A stretch of DNA of 36,272 nucleotides from an uncultured Spartobacteria bacterium. Its GTDB lineage: Bacteria > Verrucomicrobiota > Verrucomicrobiia > Chthoniobacterales > UBA6821. The notes under the pieces are model-generated. The model was not told the origin of the DNA. It searched no databases and saw nothing but the letters and a program-made list of their open reading frames with translations. Every line of letters starts with the position of its first letter. Position 1 is the first letter of the stretch. This document shows, piece after piece, positions 3,939 through 21,157 of this stretch. The position numbers were made by a program, and so were the translations under genes. The stretch is taken from the NCBI GenBank assembly GCA_903847935.1, contig CAINEX010000129.1, forward strand, positions 1 through 36,272, given 5' to 3'.

Positions 3939-5087
3939 TCACTCCTTCTCCACTGCATTGTGCACCCTGTAACCAGCTACAAATTCTCGGCGGAATTCGG
4001 CAAAGGAGCCGTCCAAAATAGCGCTCCTCATCCGCCTCATCAGAGTCAGGTAAAAGTGGAGATTATGCAGTGAGATCAGCCTCAGCCCAAGAATCTCCTC
4101 AGCCTTCACCAGATGCCTTAAATAGGCTCTTGAAAAGGTCGTGCAGGCGGGACAGGTGCAGCCCTCCTCGATCGGCATCGGATCGTTAGTATAGGGTGCA
4201 TTCTTGAGATTAAGGGTTCCCTTGGCTGTGAAGGCCGTGCCGTTTCGGGCAATCCTTGTTGGCAGAACGCAGTCGAACATGTCGATTCCGCGTGCAACCA
4301 TCTCGACAAGCTGTGGGGGAGTTCCAAGTCCCATCGCATATCGGGGAGAGCTTTCAGGGAGAAAAGGGACACTCGATTCCACCGCCTTCATCATTTCCGG
4401 TTCAGGTTCCCCGACGCTGACCCCTCCCACCGCGTAACCATCAAACCCGATCTCGACCAACGACCGTGCGGCCCGCTCCCGGAGATCGGCGTAGGAACTT
4501 CCCTGAACAATTCCAAAAAGCAGGGGGCGTCCCTCCTCCGGTTGCGTGCGCCACCACTCACGTGAGCGCCCTTCCCAGCGGGTGGTCAATGCCAGACTCT
4601 TTTCAGCTTCTTCGTAGGAGCATGGAAACGGAGGACACTCGTCGAACGCCATGACCACATCACTCCCGAGGTCCCTCTGGATCTGCATCGATGTCTCGGG
4701 ACCGATGAAGGTAGGCGTTCCGTCGAGGTGGTTCTGAAAGTGAACCCCCTCCTCTGTAATCCGCCGTAGCTTGGAGAGTGAAAAAACCTGGAAACCGCCG
4801 CTGTCGGTGAGGATTGCACGATCCCAACCCATGAACTTGTGGAGACCACCCAACTCTCCGATCAGCTTCTCACCCGGACGCACGTGCAGGTGATAGGTAT
4901 TGCTCAAGATGATTCCTGCCCCCATCGCGCGAAGTTCATCGGGAGAGACCGCTTTAACGGTGGCCTGTGTACCGACCGGCATGAAGACAGGCGTCTCCAC
5001 ATCACCCCGGCGGGTGTGCAGGATCCCAGCCCGGGCCCTGCTTTTCGAATCAGTCTTAAGAAGTGTATATGGTTTTAAAGAACTCAC
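3939..5087 (-). CDS. tgt: Queuine/preQ1 tRNA-ribosyltransferase
   Basis: Exchanges guanine at tRNA wobble position 34 for preQ1 (in most bacteria) in GUN-anticodon tRNAs, a step of queuosine synthesis. The 382-residue length is normal. The catalytic Asp sits in TDSGGFQVF (D95), the second catalytic Asp region is FDCVLPTRIARNG near residue 270, and a CxCxxC zinc motif (CTCPAC) near 310 is followed by HNLHFY, supplying the zinc His. The start is GTG at 5087; the frame is closed a short way upstream, so no earlier ATG is available. No other queuosine gene and no preQ1 riboswitch-like element is visible in the window. The gene converges on the cyclophilin gene with a 90-base gap. Confidence 0.95.
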   Translation of the reverse strand: MSSLKPYTLLKTDSKSRARAGILHTRRGDVETPVFMPVGTQATVKAVSPDELRAMGAGIILSNTYHLHVRPGEKLIGELGGLHKFMGWDRAILTDSGGFQVFSLSKLRRITEEGVHFQNHLDGTPTFIGPETSMQIQRDLGSDVVMAFDECPPFPCSYEEAEKSLALTTRWEGRSREWWRTQPEEGRPLLFGIVQGSSYADLRERAARSLVEIGFDGYAVGGVSVGEPEPEMMKAVESSVPFLPESSPRYAMGLGTPPQLVEMVARGIDMFDCVLPTRIARNGTAFTAKGTLNLKNAPYTNDPMPIEEGCTCPACTTFSRAYLRHLVKAEEILGLRLISLHNLHFYLTLMRRMRSAILDGSFAEFRREFVAGYRVHNAVEKE

Positions 5088-5219
5088 AGGGATGACGAAG
5101 AAATACTGTTAAGCTGAAGACTGCATGCTGTAAGTGGGAGAAAAATAACAAAAGAACGGACACCTAGGTTTCCTTATCCCTTTTATCCCCCTATTCCCCT
5201 TGATCCCTCTGCGGTGATC

Positions 5220-6509
5220 TTAGCTCCTGAATCCGCTCTCAAGATCCCAGACAACCTTGCCTCCGACGATCGTGGTGAGAGCTCGTCCGCGAAGAGCAAA
5301 CTCATGGAAAGGAGTATTCCTGGAAAGTGAGGGCGAATCATTCCTATCGTAGGTCCAGGAGTGATCTGGATCCAAGATGGTTATATCCGCAGGCGCACCT
5401 ACTGAAAGGGTGCCACGATCGAGTCGCAGGAGTTTTGCGGGATTCACCGTCAAGAGGGTGATGATCTGAGGCAGGGTCAGTGCCTTGCGTTGGTGCAGGA
5501 GGATTTCCAGGAAAACCGCCAACTCCGTCTCCAGACCCAACATACCAAAGGGAGCCTGATCAAACTCCACCTCCTTCTCGTAGGTGGCATGAGGTGCATG
5601 ATCGCTTGCGAGGATGCTGATGGTTCCATCAGCGATGCCCGCGATGATCGCATCGATATCGGCTGGGGTGCGAAGCGGAGGGTTCACCTTGAAATTTGTA
5701 TCGAAGGTTTTGAGCCGCTCGTCGGTAAGAGAGATGTGGTGGGGGCAGGCCTCAGCCGTGATGGGGACCCCTCTGAGGCGGGCCTCACGCAGGAGACGAA
5801 CACTCCTTGCGGAGCTGATATGCTGGCAGTGGATCGGGTGGCCGGTCTCCTCGGCGAGCAGGATATTGCGGGCAACAATGAGATCCTCGGCTAGTGCAGG
5901 CCAACCGGGGAGACCAAGTCGCGTACTCCATTCCCCCTCGTTCATGACACCATCCGCACTCAGCGTTGCCTCCTGACAATGATCCATCACGGGAAGTCCG
6001 AACTGGCGGGCGTATTCGACGGCACGTCGCATGACCCCGTGATTCTGGATGCAACGACCATCATCGGTCAAAGCAACGACTCCAGCCTGCGCGAGCGCCC
6101 CGATGGGGGACATCTCCTCTCCGGCCAAACCTCGGGTGATGGCTCCCGTGCAGAAAACATTCACGCAGGCGGTCGTTGCGGCTCGTTCCTGAATCCACGC
6201 AATCGTGGAAGGACTATCAGCGACAGGGGAGGTATTCGGCATGCAGACGACAGTGGTGAATCCACCGAATGCTGCGCATCGAGCACCGGTGGCGATGGTC
6301 TCCTTGTGCGACTGCCCCGGTTCACGGAAATGAACGTGAATGTCGATCAATCCAGGAGATACTACCTTCCCAGTGGCATCGATCACCTCCGCATGAGGTG
6401 ATTTTTCGTGAACGAGGATCCCGTCACGGACATTGATGTCGCGGATTTCATCGATGCCATTAGCCGGATCGATCACACGGCCCCCGGTGATGTGCAGTGA
6501 GTGATTCAT
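5220..6509 (-). CDS. pyrC: Dihydroorotase (class I type)
   Basis: Third step of de novo pyrimidine synthesis: cyclises carbamoyl-aspartate to dihydroorotate. Counting from the ATG at 6509 (429 residues), the zinc-binding H-x-H lies in DIHVHFREPG (H58, H60). MDHCQE, HCQHISSARS and ASDHAPH supply the later metal and active-site residues. The TDDGR segment is typical of class I enzymes that use Asp rather than carboxylated Lys. The frame is open to 6692, but that extension runs antiparallel inside pyrB sense coding and is not protein-like. It follows pyrB by five bases and is the last gene of the pyrR-pyrB-pyrC operon. Confidence 0.94.
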   Translation of the reverse strand: MNHSLHITGGRVIDPANGIDEIRDINVRDGILVHEKSPHAEVIDATGKVVSPGLIDIHVHFREPGQSHKETIATGARCAAFGGFTTVVCMPNTSPVADSPSTIAWIQERAATTACVNVFCTGAITRGLAGEEMSPIGALAQAGVVALTDDGRCIQNHGVMRRAVEYARQFGLPVMDHCQEATLSADGVMNEGEWSTRLGLPGWPALAEDLIVARNILLAEETGHPIHCQHISSARSVRLLREARLRGVPITAEACPHHISLTDERLKTFDTNFKVNPPLRTPADIDAIIAGIADGTISILASDHAPHATYEKEVEFDQAPFGMLGLETELAVFLEILLHQRKALTLPQIITLLTVNPAKLLRLDRGTLSVGAPADITILDPDHSWTYDRNDSPSLSRNTPFHEFALRGRALTTIVGGKVVWDLESGFRS

Positions 6510-15568: not shown

Positions 15569-17314
15569 TCAAAGCCCGCCATGTTTCCAGGTCGAGAGGG
15601 CAATGCGCAGGCACATGAATCCCCCCCAACAGAGGCCGACCAACCCGATCACCGGGATATGCCAGATCTTGGGTGGGATTCCCGAGTGAATCAGCAGGGC
15701 CGAGCAGATCAGGACAGAGGCTGCGACAATGGCATTGGCCAATCGATTGGCGATGGAGTCAAGGGTCACACGGAGCGGTTCGATTCCCTTCGCGTCGATA
15801 CGGTGCTGAAGGGGGATGATCACATCACCCCTCTTGATTCGATTCCACAGCATCCTGAAATCGCTTGGAAAAACCTCCAGGAAATCCACCGAGGCGGTGC
15901 CAAGTTTCTTGAGGAGTTCAAACAGGTGGGCAGGCATGTACTTTCCGGCAATCAGCTTCTCGGCATAGGGTCGGCCTAGTTCGACGAAGTTGAGTGCCGG
16001 GTTCAGCGAGCGGCCGACCGCCTCCACTTGGGAAAGGGCCTTGATGCCAAGGTAGAAGCTCCCCTTCATCCGGAGACGGTGCGTCCTCAGAAGTTCGAGC
16101 AGGTTATTCAGAACAACGGAGAGATTGATTTGGGAGAGAGGTTTATTGAGGTGCTTGTCGCTGAACTCCTCGACATCGCGAAGCATCCGGTCGAAGTCTT
16201 CCACATTCCCATCCTCGGAAAGATCGATCAGGGCGAGCATCACCTGCCGGTTGTCCTTTTCGCCGAGACCGGCGATCAGATGAGCCAGATTGGATCGGAA
16301 ACTCGGTGAGAAGGCTCCCATCATCCCATAGTCATAGAGCCCCAACACCCCACCACAGGGCACTTCCTTGGAGGGAATGATCGTCATGTTCCCGGGATGG
16401 GGGTCACCATGGAAGAAACCATGGTTGAAGACCTGCTCGTAGATCAGCCCCGAGATACTCTCCGAGAGGGCGATCGGATCAACGCCATAGGATCTCAACT
16501 CCTCGCTCTTGGTCACGGAGCGCCCCGAAATAAACTCCATCGTCAGGATCTTCTCGCCACTCAGTTTCCTGAAGAGTGCCGGCACCTTAATGAATGGTGA
16601 TCCTCGGAACTGTTGGGCAAAGCGCTCGGCATTCCCCGCCTCATGCGTGAAATCGAGCTCCTTGAGAAGGGTCTCGGCGAACTCCTGCACCACGGCCAGC
16701 GGATTCAAGGAAGCAAGATCGGGAACGTGCTCTTGAACGAACTTCGCCAGATCAACCAGGATGGAAAGATCCTGCTCGACCACGGGACGGATGTCGGGAC
16801 GTTGAACCTTCACAGCTACAGTCACCCCCTCGCGCGTGACAGCGCGGTGAACCTGGGCAATGGAGGCCCCAGCAAGAGGCTTCTCATCGAACTCCAAGAA
16901 GGCCTCGCCAACGGTCATCCCCAACTCGCGGGCGAAGATCTCCTTGGCCAAGCTTCCCGGGAAAGTCGGGACGTTATCCTGAAGCTTGCAAAGTTCCTCA
17001 TAGTAAGTGTCGTTTACGAGATCCCGTCGGGAACTCAGGATCTGTCCGAACTTGATGAATGTCGGCCCTAGTTCCTCCAGAGCGAGGCGGAGACGTTCCT
17101 GGGGTGGTTTGGCTAGGGGGCCGGTGGCGTGCCTTTCCAGCACGGCGCCGCTTCCCATGACCTGCTGCCACGCGACGAGTTTCAGGACATCCGCAAAGCC
17201 ATACTTGAAAAGAATCGTCACAATCTCATTGTAACGGGGCAGTTGCGTGGCAAAACCGACGGCAGAGCGGATTTCAGTAATCACAGGGGGATCAAATCGT
17301 TGTCCCTCCATCAT
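15569..17314 (-). CDS. UbiB/ABC1 (ADCK-like) atypical kinase family protein
   Basis: Membrane-anchored protein-kinase-like ATPase, in other organisms linked to quinone biosynthesis and lipid homeostasis. From the ATG at 17314 (581 residues): KFGQ (88-91, the KxGQ family motif), the Ala-rich loop AGASIAQVH (148-156) replacing the Gly-rich loop, the VAVKVQRP lysine strand, HGDPHPGN near residue 300 and the metal-binding DYG near 328. The C-terminus has two hydrophobic helices. A GGAG six bases ahead supports 17314; a GTG at 17347 would add 11 residues. It splits the efflux genes from the divergent TolC-like gene. No quinone genes are adjacent, so I leave the symbol blank. Confidence 0.9.
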
Positions 17315-17441
17315 GGCAACTCCAATCCCCCCATTCCGCAGCACCACGTTGCTGTTTCTAGAATCAAGGAAGGGGTTGAGTTTGCGGCAAGATCACTCCA
17401 TCGTCTCACCATCCCAACGTATAGAGAGACGAGTCCACCCT

Positions 17442-18914
17442 GTGAGCCTTTCCATCAACAACGCAATACGATTCAAACTGGTGGCACTGCTTCCGGTCCT
17501 GATCTCTGTTGCTTGCGTGTCAAGCCGAGGGAGCGATGCCAACATCATGGCCCCGATCCTGGGGCACCAAAAGACATTCCCTCTCTCCGACCACGTCGGT
17601 TCTTTCGATCAGAATCGTTCCTACGAGCTCTCCTCCCTCATCGAACTGGGTCTAGCCAATAATCCTCAGACCCGCTCCGCTTGGTTCAACGCACTTGCAA
17701 GCAGCGCTCAAGTGGGGCAGGCCAAAGCCCCTTACTATCCAAAACTCTCCCTGGATGCTCAGGGCGGTTATCAGAAAAGTTTTTATCAGATCAATAACGG
17801 CCCCATGGGGCTTAGGCAGACAAGCCTTACTCCGGAACTCGATTTCGAATATCTCCTGCTTGATTTCGGCCGACGCGCCGCCGACGTCCGCCGAACAGTG
17901 GCCCTCTTGGAAGCGGCCAATCTTGCCTTCAGTAGGAATGTCCAGAGCACGGTGTACGCAATCCAGCAATCCTACTTCGCCCACACCGCAGCCCTCTCCC
18001 AGCGGGATGCTGCGAAAGCAAATCTGGAACTGAGTAAAACCATCCTTGCCATGGTCGAGGCCCAGGTGGCCAATGGCCTAGGAACAAAGCCCGAGCTCGA
18101 TACTGCCAGGAAAACCTTTGCCCAAGCCGATTTTGATCTCTCAAGCGCCGATCGGAATGTCGAAGTTACCCTTGGCAATCTACGCGTCGCCACGGGATTG
18201 CAGGCCAATGCTCCGCTCAAGGTCGTTCCGGGAGGCAATGACACGAACGCTGACGCCTCCCCCTACGAGGTGCTTGGTTCGAAAGTGGACACCATGATCG
18301 ATGAAGCCATCCTGAAACGTCCCGATCTGGCAGCGCGAAGAGCCGATATCGCGGCAAGCAGGGCGGCGGTCGAGAGGGCCAAGGCGGACTTCATGCCTAA
18401 ACTCTCCCTCCAAGGAGCCTATTCAAGCGAACCTTATGTCTACACGGCATCCCAGCCCTCTCAAACTGGTACTTTCTATGGCAACGCCCAAGGTTACTCA
18501 GGATTCGCCATCCTAAGTTGGGATCTCTTCGACGGATTCCAGCGTGTGGAAAAGGTCAATCAAAGCCAGGCCGAGGAGTCCCGGGCGAGGGCCAATGCCG
18601 AATCGACCAAGCTGCAGACAACCCAAGAAGTCTGGATAGCCTACAACGACTTCCTCAGATCCAGAAAGAGAGTTGCCTACGCCGACTCACAGGTCTCCTC
18701 CGCGGAGGAAAACTTCAAGTCCGCCAAAGCCGCCTTCGACAATCAGCTTCTTAATATCACCGACCTTATCTCCAATCAGAGCGCGCTTGCCGCCTCCCGC
18801 TTCGATCAGGCAGGGGCAAGGGCCGATTATCTTACGAGCCTTGCGGCCCTCTCCCTCGCCATGGGCCAATTCTCTGTCCCATCATCAACCATGGTCCAAC
18901 CCGCTAAATTGTAA
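17442..18914 (+). CDS. TolC/OprM-type outer-membrane efflux protein
   Basis: Outer-membrane channel of tripartite exporters. The 490-residue frame is taken from a GTG at 17442, which puts a hydrophobic export signal (FKLVALLPVLISVACVSSRG) at the N-terminus; the frame is open further upstream but overlaps the divergent ubiB-type gene. The Cys at residue 25 is near lipobox context, so it may be a lipoprotein like OprM. Two homologous outer-membrane-efflux repeats are visible, with ALA/QAR-rich helices, a GLGTKPELDTARKTFAQA segment in the first and the RADIAASRAAVERAKADFMPKLSLQG motif region opening the second. It is the probable partner of the HlyD-like protein encoded at 14070-15251. Confidence 0.9.
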   Translation: MSLSINNAIRFKLVALLPVLISVACVSSRGSDANIMAPILGHQKTFPLSDHVGSFDQNRSYELSSLIELGLANNPQTRSAWFNALASSAQVGQAKAPYYPKLSLDAQGGYQKSFYQINNGPMGLRQTSLTPELDFEYLLLDFGRRAADVRRTVALLEAANLAFSRNVQSTVYAIQQSYFAHTAALSQRDAAKANLELSKTILAMVEAQVANGLGTKPELDTARKTFAQADFDLSSADRNVEVTLGNLRVATGLQANAPLKVVPGGNDTNADASPYEVLGSKVDTMIDEAILKRPDLAARRADIAASRAAVERAKADFMPKLSLQGAYSSEPYVYTASQPSQTGTFYGNAQGYSGFAILSWDLFDGFQRVEKVNQSQAEESRARANAESTKLQTTQEVWIAYNDFLRSRKRVAYADSQVSSAEENFKSAKAAFDNQLLNITDLISNQSALAASRFDQAGARADYLTSLAALSLAMGQFSVPSSTMVQPAKL

Positions 18915-18972: not shown

Positions 18973-19040
18973 ATGATACGCTTTCTTAGAGAAGGCTGAA
19001 ATAACTTGTGCGGAGGGATCCATGTTCTATAGCTCACGGC

Positions 19041-20146
19041 ATGTACACGACCATGCTGCCTGTCAGTTCCGAGGGGGGAGATTCCAGTTTTCAGAACAAT
19101 GTTCCGGATCCCGTTGCCTCCGGGAAAGAACTGCCGACCTTTAAGTTCGAATTGGAGAAATCGATCGGCAAAGTGATAGGAGAAAGTTCGGGTAAGGAAG
19201 CAACAGTAACCCAGTTGCCGATCTCCAAGGCACTAGCCGGTGTCTCGATGAGGATGGAACCAGGCGCGATGAGGGAGTTGCATTGGCATGCGACCGCAGC
19301 TGAATGGGGCTTTGTGACCGAGGGGGCTGTCCGCACGACTGTGATCGATCCTCAGGGATACTCGGAATCCAATGACTTCGGCCCCGGAGAAATCTGGTAT
19401 TTTCCACGGGGACATGGTCACTCCATCGCAACACTCGGAAACGAGCCATGTCACTTCATCCTCGTTTTTTACAACGGGTATTTTTCGGAATTCGGAACCT
19501 TTAGCATCAGTGACTGGATCGGGCATGCGCCCAACGAATTGCTGGCGAAAAACTTCGGCCTTCCAGCCGAAACCTTCTCCTCATTTCCGAAAAAAGAAGT
19601 CTATTTTTCCAAGAGTACAATCCCACCGGCCGAACCTGCCGCGCCACTTCAAGGGTCGAAGACCCCCCCCTGACTCACAAATACAGCCTGCTATCGCAGA
19701 GACCTTACGAGACGTTCCCCGGAGGAACGGAATGGAGGGTTGATGGGGCTCAATTTCCAATCTCGACTACCATGACCGGCGTTGTCTTGGAAATGGAGCC
19801 CGGAGCCCTGCGTGAACTTCACTGGCACCCGAACGCTTCCGAGTGGCAGTATGCCCTCAGTGGAAGTTTTCGCGTGACTCTCTTCGGTTCGGGAGGTCGC
19901 TGGCGTGAGGAGACCTTGGCGCAGGGTGATATCGCATTCATTCCCCAAGGATTCGGACACTCCATCGAGAATATTGGATCAACAAAGGCCCGCATCCTGA
20001 TTGTCTTCAATAGCGGGCACTACCAGACCATCAATCTCTCCCAGTGGATCGCAGGGAACCCCTCGGATGTTTTGGGAGCCAATTTCGGAGTCGACCCATC
20101 GGTCTTTGATCAGTTTCCCAAAAAGGAAGTTTTTCTGACCAAGTAG
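19041..20146 (+). pseudogene. oxdC: Oxalate-decarboxylase-type bicupin interrupted by a frameshift
   Basis: Two cupin domains in different frames form one bicupin. The first (to the TGA at 19671) has HWHATAAEW and PRGHGHS, giving the His-x-His, Glu and His manganese ligands, plus SEFG where OxdC has its SENS lid, so the catalytic Glu is kept. A run of eight C (19663-19670) leads into that stop. In the -1 frame the text continues without a break: PPLTHKYSLLSQRP, FPGGTEWRV, then FPISTTMTG and the second cupin HWHPNASEW/QGFGHS to 20146. One extra C would restore a full-length protein of about 368 residues. An intact OxdC would split oxalate to formate and CO2. The start is uncertain (ATG 19041 or 19053, GTG 19008). 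Sequencing error, real decay or slippage are all possible. Confidence 0.85.
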
Positions 20147-20269: not shown

Positions 20270-21157
20270 ATGAACATCGTCATCCTTGAGCCGATCGGTA
20301 TTAGTTTGGAAGAGTGCCAAAAGCAGCTCGCCGGACATCACGTCACGGAGGTTGATTCCCGGAAATGGACGGATGAACAGGTCATTGATGCGGCAAAGGA
20401 TGCTGAAATCATTGCCATCAGCAATCGCTTGTTACCTGCAACGATCATCGCAAATCTCCCAGTGCTGAAATTCATCTCCGTGGCCTTCACGGGCATTGAT
20501 CAAATCGATGCCACCAGCGTGCGCGAACGTAAGATCACGGTTAAAAACGCCTCCGGTTATGCCAAGACCGCAGTGGCCGAACTCGTGATCGGGCTCATGA
20601 TTGCGTTAGCGCGAAACATCTTGACCAATGCCACGAAAATCAGTCATGGCGGCCTCACCAACACGGGAGCGGAACTCAAGGGAAAGGTCCTCGGCATTAT
20701 CGGATTGGGAGCGATTGGCAATGAGGTGGCAAGATTGGCAACTGCCTTTGGGATGAAAGTCCTGTCACACAACCGTGGAAGCGGGACCCCTTTGAATGAG
20801 CTATTTGACCAATCGGACTTCGTGTCGCTCCATGTACCACTCGTTGAGGAAACACGCGGGCTTGTGAATGAGGCACGTCTGAAGCAGATGAAGCCGACTG
20901 CCTTCATCATCAACACAGCAAGAGGGCCGATCATCGATAGCAAGGCCCTCTTTCAGGCCTTAGAAAAGGGCAGCATTGCAGGTGCGGCAGTCGATGTATT
21001 TGATGTCGAGCCTCCACTTCCGGCGAATTACCCCCTGCTAACAGCTCCCAATCTCATCGCCACACCCCATATCGGCTTTAATACCAAAGAAGCCGTTGAG
21101 GAAAAGGGAAAGATCGCCCTTCAAAATATTTTGGATTTTTTGAAACAAAACCGATGA
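20270..21157 (+). CDS. D-isomer-specific 2-hydroxyacid dehydrogenase
   Basis: NAD(P)-dependent oxidoreductase of 295 residues that interconverts 2-keto acids and D-2-hydroxy acids. The nucleotide-binding loop GLGAIGNEVA starts near residue 144. The catalytic Arg is in NTARGP (near 216), the Glu in DVFDVEPP (near 245) and the His in TPHIGF (near 266), completing the family triad. The N-terminal catalytic half (VAFTGIDQID, NASGYAKTAVAELVIGL) is complete. The gene follows the bicupin by 123 bases on the same strand. If the two work together the substrate could be glyoxylate or hydroxypyruvate, but nothing in the sequence fixes this. Confidence 0.9.
   Translation: MNIVILEPIGISLEECQKQLAGHHVTEVDSRKWTDEQVIDAAKDAEIIAISNRLLPATIIANLPVLKFISVAFTGIDQIDATSVRERKITVKNASGYAKTAVAELVIGLMIALARNILTNATKISHGGLTNTGAELKGKVLGIIGLGAIGNEVARLATAFGMKVLSHNRGSGTPLNELFDQSDFVSLHVPLVEETRGLVNEARLKQMKPTAFIINTARGPIIDSKALFQALEKGSIAGAAVDVFDVEPPLPANYPLLTAPNLIATPHIGFNTKEAVEEKGKIALQNILDFLKQNR

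Follow-up and report, generated by a model that had tools for sequence, protein, structure and literature searches.

A bicupin oxalate decarboxylase gene split by a run of eight C in the genome of an uncultured Spartobacteria bacterium

A gene for an oxalate decarboxylase-like bicupin protein (oxdC) is split by the lack of a single base in a 36,272-nucleotide contig from an uncultured Spartobacteria bacterium, the whole of which is called the window below. The assembly record does contain the frame break: a C run one base short is followed directly by a stop codon and the second cupin half goes on in another frame (Table 1). The explanation favoured here, which stands about an even chance of being correct, is a homopolymer-length miscall, or the consensus of a strain mixture, at a tract of nine C that is prone to slippage, so that the bacterium would encode the full-length enzyme; it is preferred to a fresh mutation of the tract. 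In a draft assembly, the length assigned to one homopolymer may be enough to make an enzyme under constraint seem lost; two genes are split in this way here, and a count of oxalate users drawn from this genome may be wrong.

Table 1. Position of the split gene, its parts and its neighbours in the window
Feature	Position	Strand	Remark
TolC/OEP-family outer membrane protein gene, upstream	17247..18914	+	full-length open frame
First cupin half of the oxalate decarboxylase-like gene	19041..19673	+	stops at TGA 19671-19673
N-terminal Mn ligands His92, His94, Glu99, His138 and lid Glu161	19281..19490	+	hand count on the translation, numbered from GTG 19008
C8 run, nine C needed by the frame	19663..19670	+	TGA directly 3'
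Second cupin half, -1 frame	19670..20146	+	open to TAG 20144-20146
C-terminal Mn ligands His51, His53, Glu58, His97 of the second frame	19820..19960	+	hand count from 19670
D-2-hydroxyacid dehydrogenase gene, downstream	20270..21157	+	

The encoded enzyme and its frame break

Both halves of the gene match the oxalate decarboxylase profile TIGR03404, the first over positions 21-200 (1.3e-52) and the second over positions 214-364 (3.8e-42) of 367. The two cupin domains are thus found across the profile, in two frames; the halves, scored separately, reach 179.1 and 144.7, the curated score for one protein being 254.2 bits. Each half also carries a Cupin_1 match (Pfam). When the two frames are joined, the read-through aligns with Sll1358 (PDB 2vqa), its best solved match, over residues 36-375 of 379 (3.2e-93) and with Bacillus OxdC over residues 42-370 (1.2e-80). 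The residues that we take to be the Mn ligands (HxH..E and a later H) align in both cupins with 2vqa and 5vg3. Sll1358, presumably the protein named MncA, shares with the window gene these ligands and their spacing (HWHAxAAEW), the N-terminal lid Glu and the lack of a C-terminal Glu (IVVVF in Sll1358, ILIVF here), but its lid reads SEGAT instead of SEFGT and the cupins of the window gene lie in different frames. Bacillus subtilis OxdC (1j58, 5vg3) is likewise a bicupin protein with the same ligands and an N-terminal lid Glu; it differs by having one residue fewer between HxH and Glu of cupin 1, a lid that reads SENST and a C-terminal Glu (FLEIF), presumably E333, that is missing from the window gene. 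Judging from these alignments, the window gene is an ordinary bicupin oxalate decarboxylase of the MncA/OxdC type. The original prediction had named this family and had stated that both cupins retain their metal ligands and the lid Glu; the TIGR03404 matches of both halves bear out the former and the alignment agrees with the latter, the N-terminal lid Glu being the only one present.

The eight C that were predicted to split the gene are present and run straight into the TGA. The longest ORF covering the first half (19008-19673) starts at GTG 19008, and the nearest relatives have their start aligned, without gaps, with ATG 19041, downstream of which visual inspection showed nothing resembling a signal sequence. 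Within window positions 19012-19024, a Shine-Dalgarno-like GGAGGG precedes ATG 19022, which opens an out-of-frame ORF of 40 codons. A split enzyme made from two independent genes is unlikely, as the first ATG, GTG or TTG of the second frame is ATG 19772, which falls inside the Cupin_1 match. If the eight C are real, the first product keeps the N-terminal cupin and lacks the C-terminal Mn and half of the fold, and it would not be expected to have useful activity. In one literature search, none of the 15 papers listed out of 551 uses the words oxalate decarboxylase. In Bacillus OxdC, catalysis is assigned to the N-terminal cupin and the C-terminal Mn is a proposed electron-hole donor (PMC8254039).

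Constraint on the gene and its fate in the genus

The window assembly (2.18 Mb, 140 contigs, 95% complete) is one of a set of 16 genomes of the genus that are 76-97% complete. oxdC was matched in only two of the 16, the window genome and G007, and the copy of the latter (400-1102 of locus L007, contig C34) is wrecked. Its start codon has changed from ATG to ATA, it carries a 1-bp deletion and a 1-bp insertion, and the loss of 437 bp has joined cupin 1 to cupin 2, with the same GAC at the two ends of the deletion. This copy thus bears the further damage or loosened constraint expected of a pseudogene. The TolC gene that precedes it is reduced to a remnant, and a relative of the dehydrogenase gene lies on another contig (C62). 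In G008 (736-858 of locus L142, contig C338), the TolC and dehydrogenase genes are only 123 bp apart, TolC stop codon included, the dehydrogenase gene runs off the contig and a search of that genome for oxdC gave zero matches. By its flanks, this junction is an empty or cleared oxdC site. The two matches in 16 genomes, the wrecked copy and the flanks without oxdC together show the gene to be patchy in the genus. A paralogue that would cover the loss can be set aside, since a search of the window genome matches only the window gene itself.

In the window copy, selection is visible on both sides of the break. Compared with G007, half 1 has a dN/dS of 0.122 over 96 codons, half 2 one of 0.049 over 121 codons and the neighbouring dehydrogenase gene one of 0.096. 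Changes were polarised with ten intact relatives taken from 42 loci, six of the ten being close to one another. On the window branch, half 1 took 6 nonsynonymous versus 13 synonymous changes and half 2 took 4 versus 19; on the G007 branch, the counts were 11 versus 16 for half 1 and 6 versus 17 for half 2. One nonsynonymous and five synonymous changes could be assigned to neither branch. G007 lacks the stretch that holds the break (19337-19773), for which a count of invariant columns is the only measure: the window read-through shows 8 changes at 187 otherwise invariant columns, and the ten relatives 0-20. Six of these ten depart 0 or 3 times from the invariant columns, low counts that are probably due to near kin within the set. 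Over the 217 codons alignable to G007, dN/dS and the polarised changes rule out an old decay of the window copy. Of the marks of a pseudogene, it bears a frame-breaking lesion, in the record, and neither relaxed constraint nor further lesions, none of which were seen in it. The original prediction had held that relatives with unrelated frame-breaking mutations would point to simple decay; G007 is such a relative, though it is one genome only, and nothing in the window copy itself suggests long decay.

These data leave room for a very recent and real loss of one C from a tract of nine, by which the window gene would just have begun to turn into a pseudogene, in a genus from which oxdC is disappearing, and its product would be a first cupin ending in Lys-Thr-Pro-Pro, without the second. 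This is quite possible, a close second to a miscall or strain mixture. The rarity of oxdC in the genus, the ruin of its other copy and the G008 junction argue for it, but no other lesion is seen in the gene and another gene of the assembly, itself constrained, is also one C short (see below). Under the assumption of zero nonsynonymous change before the loss, any unconstrained phase took up at most about 17-18% of the window branch. A fresh mutation satisfies this bound, which alone has therefore no power to tell such a mutation from a miscall.

Between the window and G007, dS of oxdC (19041-20143) is 0.71, below the 1.47 of the neighbouring dehydrogenase gene (20270-21154). This lower value may reflect a later transfer of oxdC between lineages.

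The C run among relatives and two unlikely explanations, a switch and recoding

A search of genome_contigs found 42 related loci, 39 of which could be assessed for a linker in one frame. Three were left out: L037 and L050 gave no linker, their matches to both halves lying at the end of the sequence stretch available, and L048 leaves the frame earlier. In this last locus (Verrucomicrobia AV125, about 5001-5593), the first half of the oxdC relative departs from its frame near query residue 150, away from the linker. The linker is 146 nt long in the window, versus 147 or 150 nt in the 39 loci of the 42 that read both halves in-frame, in accordance with the original prediction that one missing C is the only lesion of an otherwise intact gene. 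The longest C or G run of the whole linker is 3-6 in these 39 loci and 8 in the window; in the closest relatives, the prolines at the place of the C run are mostly encoded by CCG. On this comparison, the C run is common to no assessed relative. The closest relatives (among L010-L051) come from Methylocystis, Chthoniobacterales, Planctomycetes and an Acidobacteriaceae bin, a spread that suggests transfer across phyla, some bins being perhaps misassigned. A plasmid copy was discarded, as only two Paenibacillus records were found, covering 17% of the query, and a search of viral_contigs for other copies of the site, with the two flanks set 6-14 bases apart, gave zero matches.

The run stands inside the frame of a constrained gene, one unit away from the in-frame length, and could for this reason be viewed as a reversible phase switch, the tract slipping between eight and nine C and turning the enzyme off and on. 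Such a switch is very unlikely. The comparison of tract lengths in relatives, put forward by the original prediction as a check, speaks against it, since no long run is present in any of the 39 assessed loci. The window holds no more C8 runs than chance would give (3 versus 3.25 expected, sd 2.54), the other two runs lying within open frames of 1119 and 795 nt; neither a tract kept in orthologues nor a tract beyond chance, as expected for slipped-strand variation, is thus found. Moreover, G007 lost the region by deletion, most of the long C or G runs surveyed in the genome lie within open frames, and the product is an enzyme of metabolism, with no signal sequence apparent by eye, rather than a surface structure. 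Surface proteins make up the majority of phase-variable genes, metabolic cases being also named (PMC3711429). The window gene resembles the contingency loci with poly-C or poly-G tracts in its C tract one unit out of frame and differs from them by the lack of conservation of the tract, its chance density and the metabolic role of the gene. If sequencing reads showed real mixtures of eight and nine C, the gene would exemplify slippage variation of a metabolic function in Verrucomicrobiota.

Recoding, which is less likely still, would yield the full-length enzyme from the eight-C gene, either by a -1 ribosomal slip on C CCC CCC at the TGA or by transcriptional slippage. Homopolymeric CCC codons beside a stop could re-pair after a -1 slip, and the sequence downstream of the stop is constrained. 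However, the slippery site is not conserved in relatives and the downstream structure is not unusually stable (z -0.26), so that the pairing of a conserved slippery site with a downstream stimulator that marks programmed -1 frameshifting is not found. As for transcription, insertions in Escherichia coli and Buchnera occurred mainly in A and T runs (PMC5574713), which also tells against slippage on C.

A second split gene and the homopolymer runs of the assembly

A DUF1361 gene of the same assembly (G000:C121:13747-13754; 901-908 of locus L188) also carries eight C where its frame asks for nine. PF07099 matches both halves of this split gene, in which no other damage was seen, and dN/dS is 0.124 and 0.042 on either side of its break, at high dS values of 1.57 and 1.98. 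The gene is whole and stop-free in 11 other genomes of the genus, with a C run of at most five at the site; four (G001, G002, G006 and G011) gave no match, and in G008 an additional, incomplete match lies at the end of a contig. That two constrained genes each lack one C points to a shared cause, either technical or at the level of the population. The pattern would fit a miscall, a mixed-strain consensus or fresh slippage mutations, and not an evolved switch private to oxdC. Least likely of all the readings weighed is that C runs arisen by codon drift act as switches across the species, with oxdC and the DUF1361 membrane protein gene both caught at eight C, nine C being the on state, and both flipping off and on in natural populations. 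Of the three explanations that the original prediction had left side by side, an assembly indel and a fresh mutation therefore survive; a slippage switch is unsupported, given the short tracts of relatives, the chance density and the DUF1361 lesion.

The favoured explanation, a miscall or strain mixture, can be drawn as follows. Codon changes in the linker would have given two CCC proline codons after ACC, a run of nine C arising by chance from these codons. The assembled consensus shows eight C, and the reads would be expected to show nine. The window assembly is a draft, probably put together from a metagenome, of what is taken to be a Chthoniobacterales bacterium. A linker one base short, constraint on both sides and the lack of a conserved tract argue for this explanation; the longer C or G runs (nine to eleven) that the same assembly calls inside open frames argue against it.

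Published surveys bear on both sides of the question. For singleton frame breaks validated by BLASTp, sequencing errors are expected over genuine indels, and singletons are assigned to sequencing error or a recent indel (PMC3711429). The window gene is like these singletons in being broken in one genome, with conserved protein on both sides and a homopolymer at the break, and no tested feature sets it apart from them. Illumina data can contain spurious homopolymer indels, in as many as 1% of the genes of one metagenomic set, and these arise especially above 14 bp (PMC8808543); the C run is shorter than this, which speaks against a miscall.

Among the 30 main ORFs of the window besides oxdC, 29 have a family match in a Pfam scan and no second split gene was recognised. 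At the scale of the genome, runs of at least eight C or G were surveyed in 100 of 111 places, giving 71 distinct runs, an open frame being defined from stop to stop across the run without a homologue check. Two of the 71 split a gene (oxdC and DUF1361) and 61 lie inside spanning open frames, 60 by threshold and one, L187, by eye, in what we take to be an intact CYTH-like gene. The remaining eight (L080, L086, L088, L100, L148, L154, L155 and L157) have no spanning frame judged to be a gene and were set aside by their open frames alone, the translations of L080, L086, L088 and L155 being viewed. Fifteen runs of nine and four of ten or eleven are called inside open frames; of the 17 coding tracts that need nine bases to stay in frame, two are called as eight. 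Among shorter and A/T runs, 28 of 30 C7/G7 runs (from 30 of 146 places) and 16 of 27 A8+/T8+ runs (from the first 30 of 139 places) lie in open frames. Three of the 13 C7 or A8+ runs outside open frames were inspected (L241, L260 and L269) and none looked split, the A8 run of L241 standing, by eye, at what is presumably the start of SecA. A general failure of the assembly at homopolymers is thus unsupported, given the runs of nine to eleven C or G and the C7/G7 and A8+/T8+ runs called in open frames.
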